Below are positions 14,302 to 27,509 of a DNA stretch of 64,000 nt, piece after piece; position 1 is the stretch's first letter; every line of letters begins with the position of its first letter. The stretch comes from Oscillospiraceae bacterium (GTDB lineage Bacteria; Bacillota; Clostridia; Oscillospirales; Oscillospiraceae). The notes under the pieces were generated by a model. It made no database searches, was not told the origin of the DNA, and saw only the letters and a program-made list of their open reading frames with translations. The position numbers and the translations under genes were made by a program. Location: assembly GCA_017461445.1 (NCBI GenBank), contig JAFTXW010000007.1:124001-188000 (forward strand). The letters are read 5' to 3'.

Positions 14302-15957
14302 TCAGGACTTCAGCAGGTCCAGGGTGCAGGTCTGGGCGATGCTCTTGCGCAGCTCGGCGCGCAGGGGCAGGACGGCAGAGGGGGAGACACTCAGTTCATC
14401 GATGCCGATGGCCAGGAAGGTAGGCAGCAGATCCAGGTCAGCACCCAGCTCGCCGCAGATGCCGATCCAGATACCGGCGGCGTGGGCGGCGTCAGCGGCC
14501 ATCTTCAGGGCCCGCAGGACGGCGGGATGGTGGGGATCATAGAACTTGCCCAGGTCGTTGCACTGGCGGTCGCAGGCCAGGGTGTACTGGGTCAGGTCGT
14601 TGGTGCCCACGCTGAAGAAGTCAACCAGCTTTGCCAGCTCGTCGGCGATGAAGACGGAGGAGGGGGTCTCGATCATAATGCCGATCTCAGTATCGGGATT
14701 GTAGGGGATGCCCTCCTTTGTCAGCTCCTGCATGACGCTCTGGCACGCACGCTTGCACTCCTTGACTTCCCAGACAGAGGTGATCATGGGGAACATGATG
14801 GCGATCTTGCCGAAGGCGGAGGCCCGGTACAGGGCCCGGAGTTGGGTGCGGAAGATCTCGGGACGGTTCAGGCAGATACGGACAGCCCGCAGGCCCATGG
14901 CGGGGTTCTCTTCCTTGTGCAGGTTGAAGTAGTCCACCTGCTTGTCGGCACCGATATCCAGGGTGCGGATGATGACCCGCTTGCCGTTCATGGCGACGGC
15001 TGCGGCCTTGTAGGCCTTAAACTGCTCCTCTTCGGAGGGATAGTCGTTGGCAGCCAGATACAGGAACTCGGAGCGGAACAGGCCGATGCCCTGGCCGTCG
15101 TTGGCGATAACGGCATCCAGGTCGTCAGGGGAGCCAATGTTGCAGTAGACATTGACCTTCTTACCGTCCAGGGTCACGTCCTCCTTGCCCTTCATGGACT
15201 TCAGCAGCTCCTTGCGGGCTTCCTGCTCTTCAAACTTGGTGCGCAGCGCGTTCAGGATCAGCTCGTCAGGATCCAGAATGACGGTGCCGTCAGTACCATC
15301 GACGTAGGCCAGACGGCCGTTGTATTCCTTCTTCAGGCTGTCGCCCAGGCCGCAGATGGCAGGAATGCCCATGGTGCGGGCCAGGATGGCGGTGTGGGAA
15401 TTGCCGGAGCCGCCCTGGGTAGCGAAGGCCAGGATCTTGCTCTTGTCCATCTGGATGGTCTCGGAGGGAGCCAGGTCGTCAGCGGCCAGAATCACAGGCT
15501 CGTCGGAGTCAATACCGCCCTCGGGGATGCCCATCAGGTTGTTCAGCAGGCGGCGGGTTACGTCCTTGATGTCCGCTGCCCGGGCCTGCATGTAGGCATC
15601 CTCCATGGCGGCGAACATGGCGGCGAACTGGTCACCGGCTACGGAGACGGCGTACTCCACGTTGCACTGCTCCTCGTCCAGGGTATCCATGATGCACTCC
15701 ACATAGTCCTCGTCCTCGACAAACATGGCGTGGGTCTCGAACAGGATAGCGGACTCGTCGCCGGCTTCCTCCCGGCACTTCTCAGCCAGAACCTCCAGCT
15801 GGGCGATGGATTTCTCCTGGGCTTCCGCCAACCGGGCCTTCTCGGCCTCAATGTCGGTTACTTCGGTGCGCTCGATGGTGGTGCTGGGCCGCTCATAGAA
15901 GTACAGCTTGCCCTTAACGACACCCTTGGAAACGCCCTTGCCTTGCATTAAGATCAT
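14302..15957 (-). CDS. ptsI: PTS enzyme I (PEP-protein phosphotransferase)
   Basis: 551 residues, slightly shorter than the usual ~570. Takes phosphate from PEP onto a histidine and passes it to HPr. The phosphohistidine domain has GGSGNSHTAILARTMGIPA with His188; the PEP-binding TIM barrel has IRTLDIGADK, GTNDLTQYTLACDR and GICGELGAD with the active Cys. SD AGGAG lies 9 bases before ATG. It follows ptsH across a hairpin-bearing gap. Both are on the minus strand downstream of the ascorbate genes ulaE-ulaF. Confidence 0.96.
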   Translation of the reverse strand: MILMQGKGVSKGVVKGKLYFYERPSTTIERTEVTDIEAEKARLAEAQEKSIAQLEVLAEKCREEAGDESAILFETHAMFVEDEDYVECIMDTLDEEQCNVEYAVSVAGDQFAAMFAAMEDAYMQARAADIKDVTRRLLNNLMGIPEGGIDSDEPVILAADDLAPSETIQMDKSKILAFATQGGSGNSHTAILARTMGIPAICGLGDSLKKEYNGRLAYVDGTDGTVILDPDELILNALRTKFEEQEARKELLKSMKGKEDVTLDGKKVNVYCNIGSPDDLDAVIANDGQGIGLFRSEFLYLAANDYPSEEEQFKAYKAAAVAMNGKRVIIRTLDIGADKQVDYFNLHKEENPAMGLRAVRICLNRPEIFRTQLRALYRASAFGKIAIMFPMITSVWEVKECKRACQSVMQELTKEGIPYNPDTEIGIMIETPSSVFIADELAKLVDFFSVGTNDLTQYTLACDRQCNDLGKFYDPHHPAVLRALKMAADAAHAAGIWIGICGELGADLDLLPTFLAIGIDELSVSPSAVLPLRAELRKSIAQTCTLDLLKS

Positions 15958-15982
15958 TGCTTATCACTCCTTCATAGAGACA

Positions 15983-16017
15983 GACGCCTGTCCATGATCA
16001 GAATATGGACAGGCGTC
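15983..16017 (-). promoter_or_regulatory. Intercistronic hairpin between ptsH and ptsI
   Basis: GACGCCTGTCCAT (15983-15995) and ATGGACAGGCGTC (16005-16017) are exact complements with a 9-base loop. It has no T run in the minus direction, so it is more likely an mRNA processing or stability element, or a weak attenuator, than a terminator. Confidence 0.65.
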
Positions 16018-16034
16018 GTGTGTTTACATACGGC

Positions 16035-16295
16035 TTACAGGTTCTCCTCAAAGAACTTCTTCATGGCGGCGATGGCCTCTGCCTCGGCGGGGCCCTCGGC
16101 GGCCACGACGACCTCGTCGCCGTTCTTGACGGCCAGGCTCATCAGCTTCATCAGCTGGGAAGCCTTAACGGTCTTGTCGCCCTTGGTGATGGTGATGGTG
16201 GTGTCTGCATAGGGCTTTGCCATCTTGGCAATGATGCCGGCGGGACGGGCGTGGATGCCCAGGGGGTCATTGACGGTGTAAGTAAACTGCTGCAT
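16035..16295 (-). CDS. ptsH: Phosphocarrier protein HPr
   Basis: 86 residues. Accepts phosphate from enzyme I on His15 (GIHARPAG) and hands it to EIIA proteins. Ser46 (VKASQLMKLMSL) is present, the residue that HPr kinase phosphorylates in Firmicutes for carbon catabolite control. SD AAGGAG. It lies 61 bases after ulaF without a clear terminator between, so ascorbate induction could also raise HPr and EI. Confidence 0.96.
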   Translation of the reverse strand: MQQFTYTVNDPLGIHARPAGIIAKMAKPYADTTITITKGDKTVKASQLMKLMSLAVKNGDEVVVAAEGPAEAEAIAAMKKFFEENL

Positions 16296-16356
16296 AATTC
16301 ATTTCTCCTTAAGTCTTTTATATTCTTATTTTCTTATCGAAAATGGGAATACGGGG

Positions 16357-17055
16357 TTATTTTTTCTGGCCGTAGTAGGCATTGGGGCCGTGCTTGCGCA
16401 TAAAGTGCTTGTCCTGGATGCACTGGGGGGCGGGGCCGATGGTGGGGCAGTTCTGCTCGGTGAAGATAGCCATCTTGGCCACCTCCTCCAGCACCACGGC
16501 ATGGTAGACGGCCTGGGCGGCATCCTTACCCCAGGTGAAGGGGCCGTGGTTGGCGCAGATGACGGCGGGAACGTGGACGGGATTGATGCCCCGGCTGTTA
16601 AAGGTCTCAATGATGACTTTGCCGGTATTCATCTCATAGTCCTCGTCGATCTCGGCGGGAGTCAGGTTCCGGGCGCAGGGAATGGGACCGTAGAAATAAT
16701 CGGCGTGGGTGGTGCCGTAGCAGGGAATGTCCCGGCGGGCCTGGGCCCAGGAAACGGCGTAGGGGCTGTGGGTGTGGACGATGCCGCCCAGCTGGGGGAA
16801 GGCATTGTACAGGGCCAGGTGGGTCTTGGTGTCGGAGGAGGGGTTCAGGTCGCCCTCGACCTTGTTGCCATGCAGATCCATGACCACCAGATCCTCGGGC
16901 TTCAGATCGTCATACTCCACGCCGGAGGGCTTGATGACAAACAGGCCCTTCTCCCGGTCGATGCCGCTGACATTGCCCCAGGTGTAAGTGATCAGGTTCC
17001 GGCGGGGGAGCTCCATGTTGGCTTCGTAAACCTTCTGCTTCAGTTCTTCCAGCAT
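16357..17055 (-). CDS. ulaF: L-ribulose-5-phosphate 4-epimerase
   Basis: 232 residues, the AraD/SgbE/UlaF family length. Converts L-ribulose 5-phosphate to D-xylulose 5-phosphate with zinc. Motifs: TWGNVSGIDRE, IKPSGVEYD, HTHSPYAVSWAQA with two zinc histidines, and ANHGPFTWGKDA with the third. The family cannot by itself separate AraD from UlaF. Its place behind ulaE and opposite ulaG/ulaABC argues for the ascorbate role. Ends 61 bases before ptsH. Confidence 0.92.
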   Translation of the reverse strand: MLEELKQKVYEANMELPRRNLITYTWGNVSGIDREKGLFVIKPSGVEYDDLKPEDLVVMDLHGNKVEGDLNPSSDTKTHLALYNAFPQLGGIVHTHSPYAVSWAQARRDIPCYGTTHADYFYGPIPCARNLTPAEIDEDYEMNTGKVIIETFNSRGINPVHVPAVICANHGPFTWGKDAAQAVYHAVVLEEVAKMAIFTEQNCPTIGPAPQCIQDKHFMRKHGPNAYYGQKK

Positions 17056-17073
17056 TGTCGATTTCCTCCGTTC

Positions 17074-18132
17074 TTATTCGGTAATGATGTACATGGCGAC
17101 CTCGTCGATCTCTCGGTTGGTAGCCACGATCACGTCCTTGCCGTCCTTGTTGACAAAGTGCATGGCGTTGGCACAGCCGGTGTTGCGGTCGATGTAGTCC
17201 ACAACATAGTCACCCTCGCCCCAGGAGATAGCGACGGTATCCTTGGTGCCCTTGCGCCAGCCCACGATCCAGCTGGGCTTGCCCAGAAGCTCGCAGGCCC
17301 AGGTGGCGTGGACCATTTCGGTCTCCGCCTCGGGGCGGCCCAGCTTCCACTGGGGCACATAGTTGCCGTGCTCGTCCAGATGGTAGATGACGATGGAGTT
17401 GCCATGGAAGGGGGCGATGGAGCCCAGTTCCAGCTTACCGTCGCCGTCGAAGTCCACCAGCACGGCATCGCTGCTGGGAACACTCAGCAGCTGCTCCACT
17501 TCCCAGGCTTCGCCAACAGCGGCGGGAGGATTGAACAGGAACACACCCTGCTCACAGGCCACCAGAGCGGCATCGTAGCCGTCCTTGCAGACCAGGGAGT
17601 AGCCGTGGTTCTTCAGCATGCCGATCTTGATGGGAGAGAGCTTCAGCTGGTTGGTTTCATTGTAGGAGGACAGATCCCCGGGCAGTACAGCACCGTAGCA
17701 GACACCGTAGGAACGCCAGTCGTTTTTGTACTCGTGGCCGCTCTTAAGGCAGCAGACAATCAGATAGTTCACACCGTTACGGTTCAGAATGCCGAAACGG
17801 TGGACAAAGGGTGCGTCCACCAGGGTACGGATGCTCCAGCCGCCCTCCGCCTTGGGCTCGGCAATGATGATCTTGGCGTTTGCGGAATCGTTGGGAGAAT
17901 AGAACTGGTGGGTAGCCAGGAAGGAACCGCTGCCGCCGGGAACAGGGGTAATGGTCATAACGCCGCCGGGCTGCTCCCAGACGGTCTCCAGCAGGGTGCC
18001 GTCCTCGGCGAACAGGTAGCAGGGATCCTTCTTCTCCGCGCCGACCAGGAAGCAGTTTTCGCCCTTGTAGGCCAGCTGACTCATGGCGTAGCACTTGTTC
18101 AGATTGGAAATAATCTTCTTCTCAATTTTCAT
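17074..18132 (-). CDS. Beta-propeller-like protein of unknown function in the ascorbate locus
   Basis: 352 residues, no signal peptide or membrane segment, so cytosolic. The sequence is rich in short beta strands ending in Trp/Tyr/Phe. It carries an FG-GAP-like calcium loop, VDFDGDGKLELG (about 235-246), followed by SIAPFHGNSIVIYH. Further blade-like units read TWACELLGKPSWIVGWR and AISWGEGDYVVDYI. It lies 18 bases upstream of ulaF and behind ulaE, where other ula operons carry ulaD. No link to the OMP-decarboxylase fold of UlaD is visible. A sugar-binding, sensing or mutarotase/lactonase role is possible but not shown. Confidence 0.78.
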   Translation of the reverse strand: MKIEKKIISNLNKCYAMSQLAYKGENCFLVGAEKKDPCYLFAEDGTLLETVWEQPGGVMTITPVPGGSGSFLATHQFYSPNDSANAKIIIAEPKAEGGWSIRTLVDAPFVHRFGILNRNGVNYLIVCCLKSGHEYKNDWRSYGVCYGAVLPGDLSSYNETNQLKLSPIKIGMLKNHGYSLVCKDGYDAALVACEQGVFLFNPPAAVGEAWEVEQLLSVPSSDAVLVDFDGDGKLELGSIAPFHGNSIVIYHLDEHGNYVPQWKLGRPEAETEMVHATWACELLGKPSWIVGWRKGTKDTVAISWGEGDYVVDYIDRNTGCANAMHFVNKDGKDVIVATNREIDEVAMYIITE

Positions 18133-18198
18133 CCGTAAGTCCTCCTATTATTTTACATATATGTACGGAAAATAGCAAGCTGTATTTTGTGATTTTCG

Positions 18199-19041
18199 TC
18201 AGGAAAATTGGTCCAAAATTTCGCTCATGCTGCGGTTGGCGAATTTGATGTCGTTTTTCCAGCTGTCCAGACCCACATCCCACATCTCTGTGACGTAGCG
18301 GCGGACACCCATATCCCAGGCCTTTGCGATGACGGCGGGGAAATCCACATGGCCGGTGAGGAAGGGAATCTCCCGGAATTTGCCGGGGACAGTTTCCTTC
18401 AGATGCAGAGCCACGATGTGGCCCCGGCCGGATTCCAGGTCCTCCAGCACGTCGGTGCCGTAGGTTTTTGCGGCGTTGGTCAGGTTGCCGGAGTCGGGGT
18501 AGACACCCAGGTAGGGGCTGTTAATGAGGTCAACGTACTTCATGGACTTGCCCACAGTATTCATGAACTCGGTCTCCATGGTCTCAAAGCCCATCAGGAT
18601 GCCCTTGGCCTCAGCCATGTGCACGGCTTTTGCCAGGTTCTCCCGGAACAGCCGCTCGCTCTCGGCGGTGCCTTCCTCGTAGTAAACGTCGTAGCCTGCC
18701 AGCTGGATGATGCGGATGCCCAGATCATCAGCCAATTGAATGGCCTTTTCCATGATCTCCATCCCCCGCTCCCGGACAGCGGGATCGGATGCGCCGAAGG
18801 GATACTTCCGGTGGCCGGACAGGCACATGGTGCGGATGGGGATGCCCACTTCCTTCATAAGGCGGACCAGTTCCAGCCGCTCCTCCTTCGTCCACTCCAG
18901 GCGGGCCAGGCGGCAGTCAGTCTCATCGATGCTGATCTCCACGAAATCATAGCCGCATTCCCTGGCGCATTCCAGCATGGCGCGCCAATCCATGGCTTTC
19001 GGCATGGCCTTTTCGTACAGGCCGATGGTATATTTTTTCAC
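18199..19041 (-). CDS. ulaE: L-xylulose-5-phosphate 3-epimerase
   Basis: 280 residues from GTG at 19041, 8 bases after GGAGG; E. coli UlaE/SgbU are about this long. TIM-barrel (AP endonuclease 2-like) epimerase that makes L-ribulose 5-phosphate. Motifs: VEISIDETDCRLARLEW, MCLSGHRKYPFGASD, IQLAGYDVYYEE, MGFETMETEFMN, GVYPDSGNLTNA, HIVALHLKETVPGKFREIPF. It is the first gene of the minus-strand ascorbate transcript. Frame upstream of the GTG covers the operator copies and is not coding. Confidence 0.93.
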   Translation of the reverse strand: MKKYTIGLYEKAMPKAMDWRAMLECARECGYDFVEISIDETDCRLARLEWTKEERLELVRLMKEVGIPIRTMCLSGHRKYPFGASDPAVRERGMEIMEKAIQLADDLGIRIIQLAGYDVYYEEGTAESERLFRENLAKAVHMAEAKGILMGFETMETEFMNTVGKSMKYVDLINSPYLGVYPDSGNLTNAAKTYGTDVLEDLESGRGHIVALHLKETVPGKFREIPFLTGHVDFPAVIAKAWDMGVRRYVTEMWDVGLDSWKNDIKFANRSMSEILDQFS

Positions 19042-19104
19042 TGCAAAAACCTCCAATGTATACTCGATGGATTTTTCGGGGTATGAGAAAACAGGGCAGA
19101 AAAA

Positions 19105-19153
19105 CAAAACGAACATAAAATGAACAATTCGGACATTCAAAACGAACATAAAA
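19105..19153. promoter_or_regulatory. Tandem operator copies in the ulaE leader
   Basis: CAAAACGAACATAAAA occurs exactly twice, at 19105-19120 and 19138-19153, 33 bases (three helical turns) apart. TGTTCG/CGAACA half-sites are typical of DeoR-family repressors such as E. coli GlpR. The sites lie just downstream of the ulaE promoter. The likely binder is the DeoR protein at 24049. Confidence 0.7.
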
Positions 19154-19181
19154 CAAAAATCCGAAATTTGCTTACTTCAAG

Positions 19182-19210
19182 ATTATATCGCATCATTCTT
19201 TATCTTTCAA
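19182..19210 (-). promoter_or_regulatory. Promoter of ulaE operon
   Basis: On the minus strand: TTGAAA (19210-19205), 17 bases, TATAAT (19187-19182). Confidence 0.85.
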
Positions 19211-19442
19211 GAGGGTAATCAAAATAATTTCCAACAAACTCAAAAGGAAAAGATAGAAAAAACAGAAATAAAATTTGGCGAAATATCCAAATCAACAAAA
19301 AATTTATTAAAGAATACTAAAAAAACAAACAAACACGTTTCGAGAGCCGGTTTTTTGATAGTTTCTGATCGATTTAAAAATATTTTAATTCGGAAAAATG
19401 TGACAAAAATCCAGAAAAATTACAATGAACATTAAAAAATAG

Positions 19443-19481
19443 AAAACGAACATATAAAATGCTTGCAAATGTGTTCGTTTT
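19443..19481. promoter_or_regulatory. Inverted-repeat operator overlapping the ulaG promoter
   Basis: AAAACGAACA (19443-19452) and TGTTCGTTTT (19472-19481) are perfect complements 29 bases centre to centre. The right half lies between the -35 and -10 boxes, so a bound repressor would block RNA polymerase. Confidence 0.72.
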
Positions 19482-19491
19482 CGTTTATAGT
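19463..19491 (+). promoter_or_regulatory. Promoter of ulaGCAB
   Basis: TTGCAA (19463-19468), 17 bases, TATAGT (19486-19491), with an operator half-site in the spacer. Confidence 0.8.
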
Positions 19492-19547
19492 GATAGCATA
19501 AGGAATTTGGGGACATCCAATTCTACTCTAGAAGGAGGAAAATCATT

Positions 19548-20651
19548 ATGAGCAAAGTTTCCGAAATGACCCGCGACAAGTGGATCATGAGCACCTTTCC
19601 CGAGTGGGGTACCTGGCTGGTAGAGGACATCGAGAATGAGGTTGTCGCTCCCGGCAACGTGGCAATGTGGTGGCTGGGCTGCACCGGTGTGTGGTTCAAG
19701 ACCCCCGGCAATGCCAACATCACCATCGACCTGTGGTGCGGTAACGGCAAGCGCACCCACGGCAACGGCAAGATGGCTGTGGGCCACCAGATGGCAAATA
19801 TGTGCGGCGGCCGCCTGATGCAGCCCAACCTGCGCAACGTGCCCTTCGTATTCGATCCCTTCGCATTCAAGCAGGTGGACGCTGTCCTGGCTACCCACTA
19901 TCATCAGGACCACATGTCCGCCGAGTGGGCTGCCCATGTCATCAACAGCGGCATGACCACCACCGACGAGAACGGCAACGTGATCCCCGTTCCCTTCATC
20001 GGCCCCAAGAAGAGCGTCGAGACCTGGATCAAGTGGGGTGTCCCCGCTGACCGCTGTGTTACCGTCAAGCCCGGCGACGTGATCAAGATCAAGGATCTGG
20101 AGATCGTTGCTCTGGACAGCTTCGACCGTACCTGCATCGTCACCACCGACAAGACCGACGAGACCCGCGAGGAGCTGACCGGTGTCTGCCCCACCGACAT
20201 GGACGACAAGGCTGTCAACTACCTGGTCAAGACCCCCGGCGGCAACATCTACCACTCCGGCGACTCCCATTTCTCCATCTACTTTGCCAAGCACGGCAAG
20301 GACTACGACATCGACGTGGCCTTCGGCTCCTTCGGCGAAAACCCCATCGGTATGCAGGACAAGATGACCTCCATCGACATTCTGCGCATGGCGGAAAACC
20401 TGAAGTGCAAGGTGGTCGTTCCCATCCACTGGGACGTCTGGACCAACTTCCAGGCTGACTGTGAGGAGATCAAGGTCCTGTACGACTTCAAGAAGGACCG
20501 CAATGAGTACAAGTTCCATCCCTTCTTCTGGCAGGTTGGCGGCAAGTACACCTATCCCATGGATAAGGACAAGATCTACTACCATCACCGCCGCGGCTTT
20601 GAGGATTGCTTCGAGCATCCCCAGAACATCCCCTACCGTTCCTGCCTGTAA
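19548..20651 (+). CDS. ulaG: L-ascorbate-6-phosphate lactonase
   Basis: 367 residues (E. coli UlaG 354). Metallo-beta-lactamase-fold, metal-dependent hydrolase that opens L-ascorbate 6-phosphate to 3-keto-L-gulonate 6-phosphate. Metal site [12 protein letters not shown] with His117, His119, Asp121 and His122; later YHSGDSHFS and VVPIHWDVW supply further ligands. The N-terminus [18 protein letters not shown] is characteristic of UlaG. SD AGAAGGAGG. First gene of the plus-strand operon; ulaC follows after 24 bases. Confidence 0.95.
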
Positions 20652-20675
20652 TCAGGAAGAAAGGAGATCGAAGCT

Positions 20676-21155
20676 ATGGCAAGTGTTCTGCAGACGATCG
20701 TGGAAAAGAAGCACTATCTGTTCGTTGACAAGGTCGACTCCTGGCAGGAGGCTGTCCGCCTCTCCGCTGAGAGCCTGGTGGCCGACGGCAGCGTAGACGC
20801 TGACTACTACCAGCAGATCGTCAACTGTATTGAAAAGTATGGTCCCTATGTGGTGTTCGATCACTATGTGGCCATGCCCCACTCCCAGGAAAATGCCAGC
20901 GGTGTCCACAAAACCGGTATTGGCTTTATGCGCGTGAAGGAAGAAGTGAGCTTTGGTAAGGACGAGGACGGCGAGGAGAAGGTCGCGAAGCTGTTCTTTA
21001 CCCTGGCTGCCTGCAATCCCGACGAGCATCTGAACAACATCCAGCAGCTGATGGGCGTCTTCTGCAATGAAGAGCTGCTCGACGCGCTGATGGAGGCCAA
21101 CACCCCCGAGGATATCCTGGCTGCTGAGATCGCTCATCCCATTGAGGAAGACTGA
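20676..21155 (+). CDS. ulaC: PTS ascorbate EIIA component
   Basis: 159 residues, PTS_EIIA type 2 (mannitol/fructose class). The phosphate-accepting His69 sits in VVFDHYVAMPHSQE. It takes phosphate from HPr and passes it to UlaB. Between it and ulaA are 120 bases with four tandem 10-mers. SD GAAAGGAG. Confidence 0.92.
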   Translation: MASVLQTIVEKKHYLFVDKVDSWQEAVRLSAESLVADGSVDADYYQQIVNCIEKYGPYVVFDHYVAMPHSQENASGVHKTGIGFMRVKEEVSFGKDEDGEEKVAKLFFTLAACNPDEHLNNIQQLMGVFCNEELLDALMEANTPEDILAAEIAHPIEED

Positions 21156-21200
21156 TATCAGCTCCATAACACCCAGCGTTATCCAGCAAGCCCCCGCGAA

Positions 21201-21240
21201 AACCCGCACATACCCGCACATCCCAGCACATACCAGCGCG
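21201..21240 (+). repeat. Four tandem 10-mers between ulaC and ulaA
   Basis: AACCCGCACA, TACCCGCACA, TCCCAGCACA and TACCAGCGCG follow in register. All are G-poor on this strand (consensus TMCCMGCACA), so the mRNA here should be unstructured. Upstream of the ulaA SD. Confidence 0.7.
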
Positions 21241-21275
21241 TCCCCCAATTATATAATCCGAGAGGAGAAAGATGT

Positions 21276-22769
21276 ATGCAAATTCTGAACGCAATTTGGA
21301 CCTTCTTCGCAACCTACATTCTCCAGAAAGCTCCCTACATGATCGGCTTCCTGGTTCTGGTCGGTTACGTCCTGAAGAAGGAAAAGTGGTACAACACTCT
21401 GGGCGGCACCCTGAAGGCCATCATCGGTATGCTGATTCTGAACGTTGGTTCCGGCGGTCTGACCTCCAACTTCCGCCCCATCCTGGCCGGTCTGCGTGAG
21501 CGTTTCAACCTGACCGCTGTCGTTATCGATCCCTACTACGGCCAGAACGCCGTTACCGCAGGTGTCGAGGAAGTGTTCGGCAAGGGATTCTCCAATGTTA
21601 TGATCCTGCTGCTGGTCGCTTTCATCGTCAACATCCTGCTGGTCCGCTTCAATAAGCTGACCAAGTGCCGTACCCTGTTCACCACCGGTCACGTCCAGGT
21701 TCAGCAGGCTTCCACCGCTTACTGGCTGATCATGTTCGCTATTCCCGCTCTGCTGACCAATGACATCCTGATGATCGTCTGCATGTCCATCGTGCTGGGT
21801 GCTTACTGGGCTGTTGGCTCCAACCTGACCGTCAAGCCCATGCAGGAGCTGACCGACGGTGCCGGCTTCGCCATCGCTCACCAGCAGATGTTCGGCATCC
21901 GCCTGGGCTACTGGGCAGCTGACAAGCTCTTCGGTGAAAAGAAGGATAAGAACGGCAATGTTACCCGTAAGGTCAAGAAGGTCGGCGATCTGGAAATGCC
22001 CGGCTTCTTCTCCATCTTCAACGAGAACATGGTCTGTACCGCCATCCTGATGACCGTCTTCTTCGGCACCATCATGGCTATCATCGGCAAGCCCTTCTTC
22101 GTTGAGAACGGCTACACCACCGATGGCACCAACTTCGCATGGTACTGCTTCGACAAGTGCCTGAACTTTGCTGTTTATCTGGCTATCCTGCAGCTGGGTG
22201 TCCGTACCTTCGTTACCGAGCTGACCCAGTCCTTCCAGGGTATCGCTGACAAGCTGCTGCCCTCCTCCATCCCCGGTGTGGACTGCGCTGTCTGCTACGG
22301 CTTCGGCGACTCCAACGCTGTTACCTTCGGCTTCCTGGCAGGTCTGGTTGGCCAGCTGGTGGCTATCGTCACCCTGATCCTGATTGGCAGCCCCACCCTG
22401 ATCATCTGCGGCTTCGTTCCCGTCTTCTTCGACAACGCTACCATCGGCCTGGTTGCCAACGAAAAGGGCGGTATCAAGGCTTGCTTGGTCATCCCCTTCA
22501 TCTCCGGCCTGATTCAGGTCTTCGGCTCTGCTCTGATCGCCGGCTGGTGCGGCATGGCTGCATACGGCGGCTACCTGGGCATGTTCGACTGGGCTACCGT
22601 GTGGCCTCTGATGACCGTCGTCATGAAGTACCTGGGCTATGTCGGCCTGATCCTGTGCGCTGTTGCTCTGCTGGCTATCCCCCAGATCGAGTACCGCATG
22701 GACAAGAAGGGCTACTTCCTGATTACCGAGGACTACGAGGCTTACAAGGAGTACAAGGCTTCCAAGTAA
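21276..22769 (+). CDS. ulaA: PTS ascorbate EIIC permease
   Basis: 497 residues. Polytopic (about 10-12 membrane segments) ascorbate permease of the UlaA/SgaT family. Family marks are MIGFLVLVGYVLKK, GTLKAIIGMLILNVGSGGL, GQNAVTAGVEEVFG, LVRFNKLTKCRTLFTTGH, and the late GFVPVFFDNATIGLVANEKGG. SD AGGAG lies 9 bases before ATG. Somewhat longer than E. coli UlaA (465), with an extra charged cytoplasmic loop (GEKKDKNGNVTRKVKKVG). Highly expressed codons. Confidence 0.95.
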   Translation: MQILNAIWTFFATYILQKAPYMIGFLVLVGYVLKKEKWYNTLGGTLKAIIGMLILNVGSGGLTSNFRPILAGLRERFNLTAVVIDPYYGQNAVTAGVEEVFGKGFSNVMILLLVAFIVNILLVRFNKLTKCRTLFTTGHVQVQQASTAYWLIMFAIPALLTNDILMIVCMSIVLGAYWAVGSNLTVKPMQELTDGAGFAIAHQQMFGIRLGYWAADKLFGEKKDKNGNVTRKVKKVGDLEMPGFFSIFNENMVCTAILMTVFFGTIMAIIGKPFFVENGYTTDGTNFAWYCFDKCLNFAVYLAILQLGVRTFVTELTQSFQGIADKLLPSSIPGVDCAVCYGFGDSNAVTFGFLAGLVGQLVAIVTLILIGSPTLIICGFVPVFFDNATIGLVANEKGGIKACLVIPFISGLIQVFGSALIAGWCGMAAYGGYLGMFDWATVWPLMTVVMKYLGYVGLILCAVALLAIPQIEYRMDKKGYFLITEDYEAYKEYKASK

Positions 22770-22810
22770 TTCGTATTTGAAGATTATCTTCCTTCCTTAA
22801 TTCTCAAACC

Positions 22811-22840
22811 GGGCGCGTCCGGCGAAAGCCGGGCGTGCCC
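22811..22840 (+). promoter_or_regulatory. Intercistronic RNA hairpin with GAAA tetraloop
   Basis: GGGCGCGTCCGGC, GAAA, GCCGGGCGTGCCC: a 13-bp stem with two G-U pairs that exist only in the plus-strand transcript, capped by a GNRA loop. It lies between ulaA and ulaB, has no T run, and may set mRNA stability or the ulaA:ulaB ratio. Confidence 0.65.
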
Positions 22841-22898
22841 AACCCTAAAAATCAAGGCTGCGGGTATGCAGCGCAATAATCTAAAGGAGTTTTTCACA

Positions 22899-23207
22899 AT
22901 GGCTAAGCTGGATAACAAGACCTTCCTGGTGTGCTGCGCAAACGGTGCGGGCACCTCCCTGATGATGAAGATGACCCTGGAAAAAGTGCTGAAGAAACTG
23001 GGTGTGAAGCCCGGCAGAATCCACCACTGCGCTATTTCCGAGGGCAAGTCTTCCGCTTCCCAGTTCAATATCGTCTTCACCACTGTCAACTTTGCCGGCA
23101 TGATGAAGGCCGCTGAGGAGAAGGGCACCGTGGTCCTGGGCCTGAAGAATGTTATGTCCGCTGCTGAGATGGAGCAGGCTCTGCGCAACGCGGGTCTGGC
23201 CGACTGA
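22899..23207 (+). CDS. ulaB: PTS ascorbate EIIB component
   Basis: 102 residues; start at ATG 10 bases after AAAGGAG. Lactose/IIB-type P-loop LVCCANGAGTSLMMKM; by alignment with CGxGLGSS the phosphocysteine is Cys13, with Cys12 an unusual neighbour. Passes phosphate from UlaC to ascorbate during uptake through UlaA. Last PTS gene; a terminator follows. Confidence 0.92.
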   Translation: MAKLDNKTFLVCCANGAGTSLMMKMTLEKVLKKLGVKPGRIHHCAISEGKSSASQFNIVFTTVNFAGMMKAAEEKGTVVLGLKNVMSAAEMEQALRNAGLAD

Positions 23208-23224
23208 CCGATAGCTGACAGGCC

Positions 23225-23281
23225 AAAAAGAAACCCGGGTACTTTGCTGCCCTTTCGGGGGCCGCAACCCCGGGTTCTTTC
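23225..23281 (+). terminator. Terminator behind ulaB
   Basis: AAAGAAACCCGGG pairs with CCCGGGTTCTTTC around an inner GC-rich loop. The 3' side is T-rich but interrupted, so read-through into the next genes is possible. Confidence 0.68.
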
Positions 23282-23313
23282 ATGCAAAAACGTATTTTAC
23301 GGGAGTTTTTACC

Positions 23314-24027
23314 ATGATAAAGGCAGTCCTTTTTGATATCGACAACACCTTATACGGCTACGATGCTGCCCATGCCATGGCCTGGGAGGCACTCTGCGCC
23401 TATGTTCAGGAGCATCTGCACATGGACCGGGAGACCTTCACCCGCCGCCACAGGGAAGCAATGGATATCGTAAAGGAGCGGCTGGGTGTGGACTGTGCCG
23501 CCCTCCATGACCGCTGCCTGCGCTACCAGATTCTGCTGGAAAAGCACGGACTGCCTCTGCACCACGCACTTACGATGAGCGAGCTCTACTGGGACACCCT
23601 GATCCGGTCTGCCGAACCGACACCGGGGATCATGGAATGCCTTCCCATTTTGAAGAAGGCAGGCTATATCCTGGGTATCGGTACGGATATGACACTTGAA
23701 TATCAGTTGAAGAAGCTTACAAGGCTTCAGATGCTGCCCTACTTTGATTTTCTGGTCACCAGCGAGGAGGTCAATGGGGAAAAGCCCGACAGGAAGCTTT
23801 TCCTGACCTGCGCCCAGAAAGCAGGGGTAGCCCCGGAAGAATGCCTGTTCATTGGCGACAGCCTGAAAAAGGATGTGCTTGGCGCGAAAAACGCGGGTAT
23901 GGAAGCCCTTTGGTTTGCTCCGCCCCCGGAGCAGGCTGCCATGCACCCTGAGACCGAAACAATTTACCACTACGATCATCTGACAAAAAAGCTGAAGTGT
24001 CTTGACTTTTCACGCAAAACGTGTTAA
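23314..24027 (+). CDS. HAD-family phosphatase
   Basis: 237 residues. Haloacid-dehalogenase core with a helical C1 cap: motif I FDIDNTLY (Asp8/Asp10), motif II LGIGTDMT, motif III GEKPDRK, motif IV IGDSLKKDVLGAKNAGM. Resembles YjjG/YfnB nucleotidases and other sugar- or nucleotide-phosphate phosphatases. Its place behind the ascorbate PTS and in front of a DeoR regulator suggests removal of a toxic sugar phosphate. SD GGGAG. Confidence 0.88.
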   Translation: MIKAVLFDIDNTLYGYDAAHAMAWEALCAYVQEHLHMDRETFTRRHREAMDIVKERLGVDCAALHDRCLRYQILLEKHGLPLHHALTMSELYWDTLIRSAEPTPGIMECLPILKKAGYILGIGTDMTLEYQLKKLTRLQMLPYFDFLVTSEEVNGEKPDRKLFLTCAQKAGVAPEECLFIGDSLKKDVLGAKNAGMEALWFAPPPEQAAMHPETETIYHYDHLTKKLKCLDFSRKTC

Positions 24028-24048
24028 AGAAAGGAGTGATACCAGAAT

Positions 24049-24837
24049 ATGAAACGAGATCAATCCTCTGTTGAACGGCGCAGGTCCCAGATCCTGAAGC
24101 AGATCCGTGAACAGGAGGAGGTCAGGGTTGAGGATCTGGCGAAGCAGTTTGGCATGTCAGCCATGTCTGTCCGCCGGGACCTGCAATATCTGGAGGACCG
24201 GAAGCTCATCACCCGCTTTTACGGCGGCGCGACGGTGAATCCGGATTACCGGAGTGTTTCCCCTGAAGAAGAGCTGGCCCTGTACCGCCGTCTGCTGGGC
24301 CGTTACGCGGCCTCCAAGATCTGCAACGGGGAGACCATTTTTATCAACGGCAGTATGGCCGCCCTGGGCACGTTGGATTTCATCACTGCCCACAATGTGC
24401 ACATCATCACCAACAACGGTATGGCCGTCACCAAGAAGCGGCCCAAGGGTGTCAGTGTCACCCTCACCGGCGGCGAGCTGCGGGAGCATGTGATGGTTGG
24501 CGACAACGTGCTGCGGGTTCTGCTGGATTCCACCGCGGATAAAACAATTTTAGGCTGCGCGGGGGTTACGCCCAACGGAGAATTCTGTTATAATATCCCC
24601 ATGGAGATTGGTATCAATGAAACCATGATCGCCCGGACTGCCAAGGAGCTGTACATTCTGGCAGACCACACCAAGATGGAGAATGTGGCGGAGAATACCG
24701 CCCGCTACGGCAGCTGCACCTACGACCGTCAGGTCACCCTGATCACCGACGAAAAGGCTGACCCCGCCACGGTGGAAAGCCTGCGCAAGCTGGGCATCGA
24801 AGTTTACCAGGTGGGCCTGAACGACGTGAATTTCTGA
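24049..24837 (+). CDS. DeoR-family transcriptional regulator, probable ascorbate repressor
   Basis: 262 residues. N-terminal winged helix (~12-68: RRSQILKQIREQEEVRVEDL, then SAMSVRRDLQYLEDRKLITR with the DeoR recognition helix). The C-terminal DeoRC sensor domain has FINGSMAAL, HIITNNGMAV, LTGGELRE and LADHTKMENVA. DeoR proteins bind sugar phosphates; UlaR of E. coli belongs here. TGTTCG/CGAACA operator copies at both ula promoters match this family's binding style. It may also control its own cluster. SD AAAGGAGTGAT. Confidence 0.9.
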   Translation: MKRDQSSVERRRSQILKQIREQEEVRVEDLAKQFGMSAMSVRRDLQYLEDRKLITRFYGGATVNPDYRSVSPEEELALYRRLLGRYAASKICNGETIFINGSMAALGTLDFITAHNVHIITNNGMAVTKKRPKGVSVTLTGGELREHVMVGDNVLRVLLDSTADKTILGCAGVTPNGEFCYNIPMEIGINETMIARTAKELYILADHTKMENVAENTARYGSCTYDRQVTLITDEKADPATVESLRKLGIEVYQVGLNDVNF

Positions 24838-24847
24838 GGGAATCCTT

Positions 24848-25678
24848 ATGGAAAAACGAATGCTGTTTATGGATCTGGACGGCACGCTGCTGGATGACCG
24901 GAAGGAGATCACACCCGGCAACCGGCAGGCCCTGGAGCAAGCTCTCCAGCGGGGCCACGGGGTCATCATTACCACCGGACGGCCCCTGAAAAGTGCCATG
25001 GAGCAGGCCCGGAAGCTGGGCTTCGACAAGCCCGGCTGCTATCTGATCGCCTACAACGGCGCGGTGATCTTCGACTGGGCTTGGGAAAAGCAGATATTCG
25101 CCAGGACACTGACCATTCCCACAGTCCAGAAGGTCTTTGACCATGTGAATCCCCTGGGCATCCATGTCCAGACCTATGACGAATGGACGGTTCTGGTAGA
25201 GCCCCGGTGCGATGACGCGGCAGTCCGCCGCTACTGCAGCCTTATCAACATGGAACACCGGGTGATCGGCGATGTTCACACCGATTTGAAGGAGGAGCCT
25301 GTGAAGGTGCTGGTCATCGACTATGACGACCAGACAGAGCTTCTGAAGGTGGAAGCCTGGCTCCGGGAGGAAATGGCGGATATCGTGGACTGCTTTTTCT
25401 CCTGCGACCAGTACCTGGAAGTGGTTCCCAAGGGCATGAGCAAAGGCGAAGCCGTGGTCATGCTGTGCCGGATGCTGGAGGTCCCCGTCCAAAACGCGGT
25501 GGCAGTGGGTGACGCGGCCAACGACCTGTCCATGATCCAAATGGCAGGCATCGGCGTTGCCATGGCAAACGGCACCGAGGAAGTGAAATCCGTTGCCGAC
25601 TATATAACGAAGCGTGACAACAACCACGATGGCATCGCCGAAGTTGTGGAGCGTTTTTTCGCTGAAAATGTTGGATAA
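24848..25678 (+). CDS. Cof-type HAD-IIB sugar phosphatase
   Basis: 276 residues. Motif I LFMDLDGTLLDD, motif II ITTGRP, Lys in the middle and motif IV VGDAANDLSMIQMAG, with the C2B alpha/beta cap between. YidA/Cof-like enzymes dephosphorylate sugar phosphates. Starts 10 bases after the DeoR stop, so cotranscribed. Ends 45 bases before the transketolase genes. Confidence 0.9.
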   Translation: MEKRMLFMDLDGTLLDDRKEITPGNRQALEQALQRGHGVIITTGRPLKSAMEQARKLGFDKPGCYLIAYNGAVIFDWAWEKQIFARTLTIPTVQKVFDHVNPLGIHVQTYDEWTVLVEPRCDDAAVRRYCSLINMEHRVIGDVHTDLKEEPVKVLVIDYDDQTELLKVEAWLREEMADIVDCFFSCDQYLEVVPKGMSKGEAVVMLCRMLEVPVQNAVAVGDAANDLSMIQMAGIGVAMANGTEEVKSVADYITKRDNNHDGIAEVVERFFAENVG

Positions 25679-25723
25679 ACTGTAGTTCCTATTTGCAAAG
25701 AATATTTTATTAGGAGGAATTGT

Positions 25724-26569
25724 ATGACACCCGTTGAAAAGAAGCAGCTGGAAATCCAGGCCTGCAAGGTGCGCATGGGCATCATCGATGCCACCCACGG
25801 TGCCAAAGCCGGTCATCCCGGCGGCAGCCTGTCCGCCGCTGATATGTTCACCTACCTGTACTTCAAGGAGCTGAATGTAGATCCCAAGAATCCCAAGTGG
25901 GAAGGCCGTGACCGCTTCGTGCTGTCCAAGGGCCACACCGCCCCCGGCCTGTACGCCGCTCTGGCACACCGTGGCTTCTTCCCTGTGGAGGACCTGCCCA
26001 CCCTGCGCCACATTGACTCCTACCTGCAGGGCCACCCTAACATGAACACCGTTCCCGGTGTCGATATGTCCACCGGCTCCCTGGGCCAGGGTATTTCCGT
26101 GGCTGTGGGCATGGCTCTGGGCCTGAAGCATCAGAACAGCACCGCCCGTGTCTACACCCTGCTGGGCGACGGCGAGATCCAGGAAGGCCAGGTCTGGGAG
26201 GCCTGCATGGCTGCTGCCCACTATAAGCTGGACAACCTGGTGGTCATCGTGGATAACAACGGCCTGCAGATCGACGGCAATGTTGCCGACGTTATGAGCC
26301 CCTACCCCATCGTGGGCAAGCTGGAGGCCTTCGGTTTCCATACCGTCGCCATCGACGGCCACAACTTCGACCAGATCGAAGCCGCCCTGAACGAGGCAAA
26401 GACCGTGAAGGGCCAGCCTACCGCCATCGTGATGAAGACTGTCAAGGGCAAGTGCGTGTCCTACATGGAGAACAAGGCCGGCTGGCACGGCAAGGCACCC
26501 AACGATGCCGAGCACGAGCAGGCCATCAACGAGCTGACCGCAATTCTCAACGAACTGGAGGGCAAGTAA
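25724..26569 (+). CDS. Transketolase, N-terminal (TPP-binding) subunit
   Basis: 281 residues, the first half of a split transketolase, as is common in Clostridia. Binds thiamine pyrophosphate and magnesium: GDGEIQEGQVWEACMAAAHY through DNNGLQIDG. Also seen are GHPGGSLSAADM and RDRFVLSKGHTAPGLYAAL with active-site histidines. Uses xylulose 5-phosphate, the end product of the UlaE/UlaF route, as donor. SD TAGGAGG. Confidence 0.95.
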   Translation: MTPVEKKQLEIQACKVRMGIIDATHGAKAGHPGGSLSAADMFTYLYFKELNVDPKNPKWEGRDRFVLSKGHTAPGLYAALAHRGFFPVEDLPTLRHIDSYLQGHPNMNTVPGVDMSTGSLGQGISVAVGMALGLKHQNSTARVYTLLGDGEIQEGQVWEACMAAAHYKLDNLVVIVDNNGLQIDGNVADVMSPYPIVGKLEAFGFHTVAIDGHNFDQIEAALNEAKTVKGQPTAIVMKTVKGKCVSYMENKAGWHGKAPNDAEHEQAINELTAILNELEGK

Positions 26570-26570
26570 T

Positions 26571-27509
26571 ATGGCAGACGTAAAGAAGATCGCCACCCGC
26601 GACAGCTACGGCAAGGCCCTGGCAGCCCTGGGCGCAGAGCATGAGAATCTGGTAGTTCTGGATGCCGACCTGGCCGGTGCTACCAAGACCGCAACCTTCC
26701 AGAAAGCATTCCCCCAGCGTCACTTCGACTGCGGCATTGCCGAGGCCAACATGATCTGTGTGGCCGCCGGTATGGCCACCACCGGTCTGGTGCCCTTCGC
26801 ATCCACCTTCGCCATGTTCGCCGCAGGCCGTGCTTACGAGCAGGTCCGCAACTCCATCGGTTATCCCCACCTGAACGTGAAGATCGGTGCCACCCACGGC
26901 GGTATCTCCGTCGGCGAGGACGGCGCATCCCACCAGTGCTGTGAGGACTTCGCCCTGATGCGCACCATCCCCGGCATGGTGGTCATGTCCCCCGCCGACG
27001 ATGTGGAAGCACAGGCCATGGTGAAGGCCGCATACGAGCATGAAGGCCCCGTTTACATCCGCTTTGGCCGGGCTGCTGTCCCCGTCATCCACGAGGAAGG
27101 CGCACCCTTCCAGATCGGCAAGGGCGAAGTTCTGAAGGACGGCACCGACGTTGCCATCATCGCCAACGGCCTGCTGACCTACGAAGCTGTGGTCGCCGCT
27201 GAGGAGTTGGCAAAGGACGGCATCAACGCCATGGTCATCAACATGGGCACCATCAAGCCCCTGGACGAGGAGCTGGTGCTGGAAGCTGCCCGCAAGTGCG
27301 GTAAGATCATCACCGCCGAGGAGCACTCCGTCATCGGTGGTCTGGGCGAAGCTGTCTGCAGCGTTCTCAGCGAGAAGCTGCCCACGCCCGTGAAGAGGAT
27401 CGGCGTCAACGACGAGTTCGGCCACTCCGGCCCCGCCGCCGCCCTGCTGAAAGCATTCGGCCTCTCCTCTGAGCACATCGTGGAAGTCGCCAAGGAAATG
27501 TGTAAGTAA
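26571..27509 (+). CDS. Transketolase, C-terminal subunit
   Basis: 312 residues. Pyrimidine-binding (DCGIAEANMICVAAGMATTG with the catalytic Glu) and C-terminal transketolase domains. Also GISVGEDGASHQCCEDFALM and YIRFGRAAVP. The ATG lies one base after the stop of the N-terminal subunit, so the two are translated together in equal amounts. Confidence 0.95.
   Translation: MADVKKIATRDSYGKALAALGAEHENLVVLDADLAGATKTATFQKAFPQRHFDCGIAEANMICVAAGMATTGLVPFASTFAMFAAGRAYEQVRNSIGYPHLNVKIGATHGGISVGEDGASHQCCEDFALMRTIPGMVVMSPADDVEAQAMVKAAYEHEGPVYIRFGRAAVPVIHEEGAPFQIGKGEVLKDGTDVAIIANGLLTYEAVVAAEELAKDGINAMVINMGTIKPLDEELVLEAARKCGKIITAEEHSVIGGLGEAVCSVLSEKLPTPVKRIGVNDEFGHSGPAAALLKAFGLSSEHIVEVAKEMCK

Follow-up and report, generated by a model that had tools for sequence, protein, structure and literature searches.

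Among the closest described systems to the locus studied here is the Escherichia coli ula regulon (UlaABCDEF-UlaG). Its decarboxylase, UlaD, belongs to the OMP decarboxylase/HUMPS suprafamily, a textbook case for the study of enzyme evolution, and relies on Mg2+ to steady the enediolate after decarboxylation. E. coli also has a yia route, comprising a diketogulonate reductase, a kinase, SgbH and SgbU. Among propeller proteins, a point of comparison is aldos-2-ulose dehydratase/isomerase (AUDH), a fungal dehydratase with further domains that acts on keto sugars. AUDH is an enzyme with a VCBS-type propeller (PMC8023676).

We analyzed a 64,000-nucleotide stretch of an Oscillospiraceae bacterium genome (contig JAFTXW010000007.1), hereafter the window. 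Positions 14302-27509 carry a near-complete ascorbate route consisting of Enzyme I, HPr, UlaABC, UlaG, UlaE, UlaF and a split transketolase. The other steps of the E. coli regulon are present and homologous, but UlaD is missing from the window, as the initial annotation had pointed out, and a propeller-like protein of 352 residues, here called PROP, is found instead; the locus further adds the split transketolase and two HAD genes, with general PTS genes adjacent. On the minus strand, the order is ulaE (L-ribulose/L-xylulose-5-phosphate 3-epimerase, 18199..19041; TIGR00542, 303 bits against a cut-off of 272, metal ligands intact), PROP (17074..18132, supported by its ORF, conservation and gene context) and ulaF (L-ribulose-5-phosphate 4-epimerase, 16357..17055; NF009625, 395 bits, cut-off 369), with 66 bases between PROP and the upstream ulaE and 18 between PROP and the downstream ulaF. 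The start of ulaE is probably the GTG at 19041, behind a GGAGG, rather than the listed ATG at 19149. The plus strand carries ulaG (L-ascorbate-6-phosphate lactonase, 19548..20651; NF008688, 600.9 bits, cut-off 306, HxHxDH motif intact), ulaC (PTS IIA, 20676..21155; PF00359), ulaA (PTS IIC of the EIIC-GAT type, 21276..22769; PF03611, E 4.8e-101), ulaB (PTS IIB, 22866..23207; PF02302), a HAD hydrolase (HAD1, 23314..24027; PF13419/PF00702), a DeoR-family regulator (24049..24837; PF00455 and PF08220), a Cof-type HAD hydrolase (HAD2, 24848..25678; TIGR00099 over cut-off) and the two transketolase halves (25724..26569 and 26571..27509), which match the first and last parts of transketolase models, respectively. 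UlaABC, UlaG, UlaE and UlaF thus occur together without UlaD; since all three PTS subunits score under curated ascorbate cut-offs (UlaA reaches 367 of 380 bits for PRK09410, and UlaB and UlaC fall under the NCBIfam thresholds), ascorbate is assigned as the substrate mainly from UlaG and the gene order.

Directly downstream of ulaF, the window encodes an HPr-family protein (16035-16295) and PTS Enzyme I (14302-15957), the latter over the TIGR01417 cut-off, which places the general PTS (14302-16295) next to the ascorbate-specific one. Where the ula cluster ends (25724-27509), transketolase is encoded as two separate ORFs, an arrangement that recurs in loci L024, L025, L026 and L086, and in L024 a ribulose-phosphate 3-epimerase gene stands beside the two halves.

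The gap between the divergent ulaE and ulaG starts contains three operator-like repeats, all read on the plus strand: two copies of AAACGAACATAAAA (19107..19120 and 19140..19153) and one of AAACGAACATATAA (19444..19457). Exact copies of AAACGAACATAWAA occur three times in the whole window, all of them in this gap; allowing two mismatches gives 4 occurrences in the window against 0.19 expected, a figure that flatters because the pattern was picked after the repeats had been seen. Two promoter-like sites, identified by consensus match only, flank this arrangement: TTGAAA-17-TATAAT for ulaE-PROP-ulaF (19182..19210, minus strand), which is followed by two of the repeats, and TTGCAA-17-TATAGT for ulaG (19463..19491, plus strand), which is preceded by the third. 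These positions suggest that PROP probably shares a transcript with ulaE and ulaF and its control with ulaG. The repeats (19107-19457) are possibly the sites of the DeoR regulator.

The missing decarboxylase was then sought across the window genome (90.8% complete). A PF00215 search returned one gene, located amid pyrE, pyrD and pyrK-like ORFs and therefore read as PyrF; E. coli UlaD as a query found no match at E 0.1, and the NF009832 profile, on which E. coli UlaD itself scores 337 bits, found none at E 1e-5. On these searches, we rejected a UlaD hidden elsewhere in this genome. The same holds more widely: across 31 distinct genomes carrying PROP (18 from the family, 5 picked for UlaG and 8 further, leaving out those of L093, a weak match, and L091, the same contig as L033), NF009832 exceeded its cut-off in none, so the regular co-occurrence of propeller and ulaD that would have spoken against a substitution was not seen. 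A 3-hexulose-6-phosphate synthase or near relative (HUMPS) is present in two of them (G252 and G254); in the genomes behind L086 and L088, these genes are L094, over the synthase cut-off, and L095, similar and under it. The remaining 29 have no NF009832 match above 26 bits. Partial NF009832 matches of 19-26 bits appeared in G288, G597, G434, G638, G306 and G511, those in the PROP genomes G288 and G597 reaching 22-25 bits only.

An overlooked UlaD in incomplete assemblies, with PROP as an unrelated passenger, would account for this pattern, and the window genome at 90.8% and four family carriers, with or without UlaG, at 65-79% leave some room for it. However, at least 95% completeness was recorded for 12 of the 16 genomes holding both PROP and UlaG, two of which (G160 and G378) are single contigs, and the named stray PF00215 matches proved to be PyrF or ribulose-phosphate 3-epimerase; we regard this explanation as very improbable and largely refuted. 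Specifically, the secondary matches considered as disguised UlaD were rejected as PyrF subfamily 2 (L060 and L061) or ribulose-phosphate 3-epimerase (L062, L063, L065 and L024), a set that excludes L064 and L055-L059. The last five, lower-scoring main matches in ORFs of 314-355 aa (54-92 bits), are presumably PyrF. Three E. coli UlaD matches at E 0.016-0.04 are genes that PF00215 scores over 210 bits.

To compare the two proteins on common ground, we considered genomes picked for UlaG alone (NF008688 over cut-off), namely 11 of 250 in the family, window genome included, and 7 more of 398 in the phylum. Among these 18, PROP occurs without UlaD over cut-off in 16 and UlaD without PROP in 2, with no genome holding both or neither (Fisher p 0.0065, genomes treated as independent). 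PROP is found in all 11 family genomes and in 5 of the 7 from the phylum, UlaD in exactly the other two. Within the family, PROP is present in 18 of the 250 genomes: 11 of 11 with UlaG versus 7 of 239 others (p 7e-15, again treating genomes as independent). The two solutions can occur in members of a single family, as G511 has the order UlaC-UlaD-UlaE-UlaF-UlaB-UlaA followed by UlaG, and G378 has UlaC-UlaB-UlaA-UlaG-PROP-UlaE-UlaF; no further UlaG carriers were found in 20 genomes of the family of G378 or 37 of its class. Five genomes with UlaG-like proteins of 215-248 bits, under the curated cut-off (G200, G395, G434, G306 and G638), were left out of this count beforehand. They have neither PROP nor UlaD over cut-off, the 17-20 kb fetched contain neither ulaE nor ulaF, and for these reasons their UlaG-like proteins are read as other lactonases. 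Counted over the 12 genomes picked for UlaG or a UlaG-like protein, PROP is present in 5.

As a control, all 26 UlaG records (E 1e-60) of a plasmid collection also hold UlaD or a HUMPS-family gene: 24 match E. coli UlaD at E 1e-30, one has an annotated HUMPS gene next to ulaG, and in the last, pieces of UlaD lie some 2.5 kb away. This set is redundant (9 Escherichia, 7 Pantoea), includes some chromosomes and two records with a third of ulaG, and attests mostly to presence in the record only. One PROP query at E 1e-5 found no match in the plasmid records, and no PROP relatives were found among viral contigs. A human faecal record labelled Bacteriophage sp. (UNVERIFIED; L135, MT836566.1) carries UlaE-UlaG-FGGY kinase-UlaA-PROP-UlaF with a SorC gene and is bacterial DNA. 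Further PROP copies were located in at least 10 loci of named genomes, including Blautia schinkii, Lachnospiraceae, a Mediterraneibacter and a Solobacterium.

In the UlaG tree, 21 of 22 PROP-partnered UlaGs fall into one clade (support 95/98) and the nine UlaD-partnered ones lie outside it, requiring 2 or 3 changes; L077 and L040 were labelled as PROP-partnered from a PROP on another contig of the genome, the former by hand and the latter likewise, though also found by script. Because the PROP-partnered UlaGs form mostly a single clade, the Fisher values overstate independence, and the exclusivity may reflect two or three evolutionary events. The finding that stands is the retention of PROP alongside UlaG across the whole clade.

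We next inspected the surroundings of 33 distinct PROP loci (34 minus the duplicate L091; L093 was set aside because its match, 29% identity over 143 residues, is too weak). The fetched stretches contain UlaE in 23, UlaF in 20, UlaG in 20 and UlaA in 16 of them, at least one of these in 27, and UlaD in none. UlaE or another AP_endonuc_2 TIM-barrel gene is present in 25. In all 16 PROP loci and all 8 UlaD loci compared, UlaE retains the residues that we take to be its metal ligands, and the UlaG HxHxDH motif is intact in every one of 32 rows (two of them the E. coli protein), so the flanking pathway steps should run. When gene families were compared between 21 PROP/ula loci and 10 UlaD loci, setting aside shared antisense or overlapping ORFs, PROP was the only family present in all of the former and none of the latter; as the 21 were chosen to hold PROP, this comparison shows only the absence of rival families, the next named one missing from the UlaD loci being HAD1 (8 of 21).

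PROP also recurs in a setting without UlaG. Three genomes without UlaG (G228, G120 and G183; no match at E 1e-30) have it together with UlaE, an FGGY kinase and a 2-hydroxyacid dehydrogenase (L028, L033 and L034), a layout resembling the E. coli yia route with PROP in the place of SgbH. Xylulokinase is the best match for the kinases in L028 and L034, at scores below its cut-off. These two loci have homologous kinases and homologous dehydrogenases, so the set may have travelled as a block. In the PROP tree, this context arose at least 2 times, and the UlaG context changed at least 5 times by well-supported branches, with the UlaG-context label assigned by hand to L027, whose UlaG is on a different contig, and to L086, where the contig is truncated and shows UlaA and UlaB but no UlaG. 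In L029 and L039, PROP is paired with another AP_endonuc_2 TIM-barrel gene, which suggests that its product could be a ketose for an epimerase.

Six of the 33 loci (L023, L029, L036, L039, L084 and L092) have no nearby ula gene. In Blautia schinkii (L084, 10001-11044), PROP (52% identity) comes after a GH32 gene, in the company of a sugar ABC transporter cluster and DUF2961 and ADP-ribosylglycohydrolase genes, with no ula gene in the 21 kb fetched; this misfit with ascorbate counts against PROP as a replacement for UlaD. In Marseille-P2935, another of the six, PROP lies beside a PnrA-type ABC transporter. The family may thus include members with other substrates. In L031 (9761-16989) and L032, PTS EIIC/EIIB, GH1 glycosidase and PfkB kinase genes stand between PROP and ulaE-ulaF, perhaps for the intake of an ascorbate glycoside. 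L036 and L038 place PROP beside the tripartite tricarboxylate-type transporter genes TctA/TctC, L038 with TctB as well, perhaps to import an open-chain sugar acid, diketogulonate for example. In L089 (8806-11744), the genes on either side of PROP encode a PF10282 lactonase-type propeller and a SnoaL-like protein, with UlaE, UlaG and an FGGY kinase adjacent.

These surroundings bear on a second explanation, in which PROP performs a different step on the same substrate, such as lactone hydrolysis, ring opening, isomerization or hydration, and decarboxylation falls to another unrecognized enzyme or the route is changed. Lactonases exist among propeller families. The lactonase-type neighbour in L089 and the six loci lacking ula genes point the same way, as does AUDH, a VCBS propeller enzyme that is a dehydratase/isomerase (PMC8023676). 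On the other hand, a lactonase is already supplied by UlaG, the UlaE or AP_endonuc_2 genes in 25 of 33 loci suggest that a ketose is made, and the family comparison yielded no second candidate for the missing decarboxylase. On balance we hold a different step to be unlikely, with replacement of UlaD the preferred reading.

The protein itself had been described from the window as conserved-looking, with an FG-GAP-like DFDGDG loop and in no recognized family, and each of these points stands. Its relatives are 23-72% identical and share 19 positions invariant in 32 of 32 aligned sequences: Y15, W52, G57, F77, H111, D138, G143, N175, H176, G177, G196, W210, D227, D231, G232, E235, H243, G244 and H275, four of them histidines (H111, H176, H243 and H275). 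A further seven positions (R112, W139, S221, D222, R293, N322 and N339) are conserved in 30 or 31 of the 32. The members begin at about the same methionine and, judged by eye from the alignments, have no signal-like N-terminus. The loop is present as a single DxDxDG calcium-loop motif (D227, D231 and G232 in 32 of 32, D229 in 30 and G230 in 31), matched by both FG-GAP/VCBS models but weakly: window PROP scores E 0.012 for PF13517 (16.6 of 26.9 bits) and E 0.036 for PF01839 (14.4 of 22.1 bits), both under the Pfam gathering score. A match at E 1 or better was obtained for 14 of 18 aligned members, window PROP among them, the best being 7e-5. The loop more probably binds calcium in a structural role. 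Unlike typical FG-GAP and VCBS propellers, PROP has only this one loop, and segment-to-segment profile comparison gave no significant internal repeat. No NCBIfam model matched it, and neither AUDH nor any other PDB chain was matched by sequence, the best hit (E 0.049) aligning only at the DGDG loop. By eye, the putative propeller can nevertheless be divided into seven blade-like segments, four of which have H111, H176, H275 or N322 close to their start. Compared with UlaD, PROP occupies the same slot between UlaG and UlaE/UlaF and excludes it in the 18 UlaG genomes, but it has no PF00215 or NF009832 match at E 0.1, measures 352 rather than 216 aa and has a different expected fold.

Such a protein could also be an intracellular sensor, scaffold or regulator, with CO2 lost from 3-keto-L-gulonate 6-phosphate non-enzymatically or through a side activity. 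Propellers frequently bind ligands or partners, β-keto acids can decarboxylate spontaneously, and the 3-hexulose-6-phosphate synthase family, represented in G252 and G254, may have UlaD side activity. Against this, 29 of the 31 PROP genomes have no NF009832 match above 26 bits; many loci already encode a regulator (DeoR in 16 of 33, SorC in 5), whose type varies while PROP stays; and an invariant polar set with four histidines, held over 23-72% identity, is typical of catalysis. We therefore rate a sensor or scaffold as quite improbable. The initial annotation had left the choice among a UlaD replacement, a sugar-phosphate sensor and a mark of a changed pathway; replacement is now favoured over the sensor, owing to the invariant His/Asp/Arg set, the constant presence of PROP next to UlaG and its reappearance with UlaE where UlaG is absent. 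The earlier interpretation is thereby supported in part, with PROP as a putative enzyme.

PROP is thus a strong candidate for the role of UlaD, as an enzyme unrelated to it and so far undescribed. We think it fairly likely, on comparative sequence grounds, that it is a cytoplasmic enzyme that has replaced UlaD/SgbH by non-orthologous displacement and decarboxylates 3-keto-L-gulonate 6-phosphate. In the scheme we propose, this compound, the product of UlaG, would be taken up by PROP, which would remove CO2 to give L-xylulose 5-phosphate for UlaE and UlaF. One face of the predicted propeller would be lined by Y15, H111/R112, D138, N175/H176, D222, H243, H275, R293, N322 and N339. A divalent metal on some of the four histidines may steady the enediolate left after CO2 loss, a role resembling that of Mg2+ in UlaD, and R112/R293 with their neighbours could hold the phosphate and carboxylate. 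We know of no propeller decarboxylase, and a search of the literature (titles and abstract starts, most subscription papers lying outside its scope) found no earlier report of PROP standing in for UlaD.

The pattern of a missing UlaD with PROP in its place covers many gut-type bacteria that apparently use vitamin C. If the proposed reaction is correct, ascorbate pathways that seem broken in gut bacterial genomes would be completed, and a protein without an NCBIfam match would gain a function. An unrelated propeller carrying out the decarboxylation of UlaD would then be a clear example of enzymes evolving convergently, and might define a class of decarboxylases not described before.
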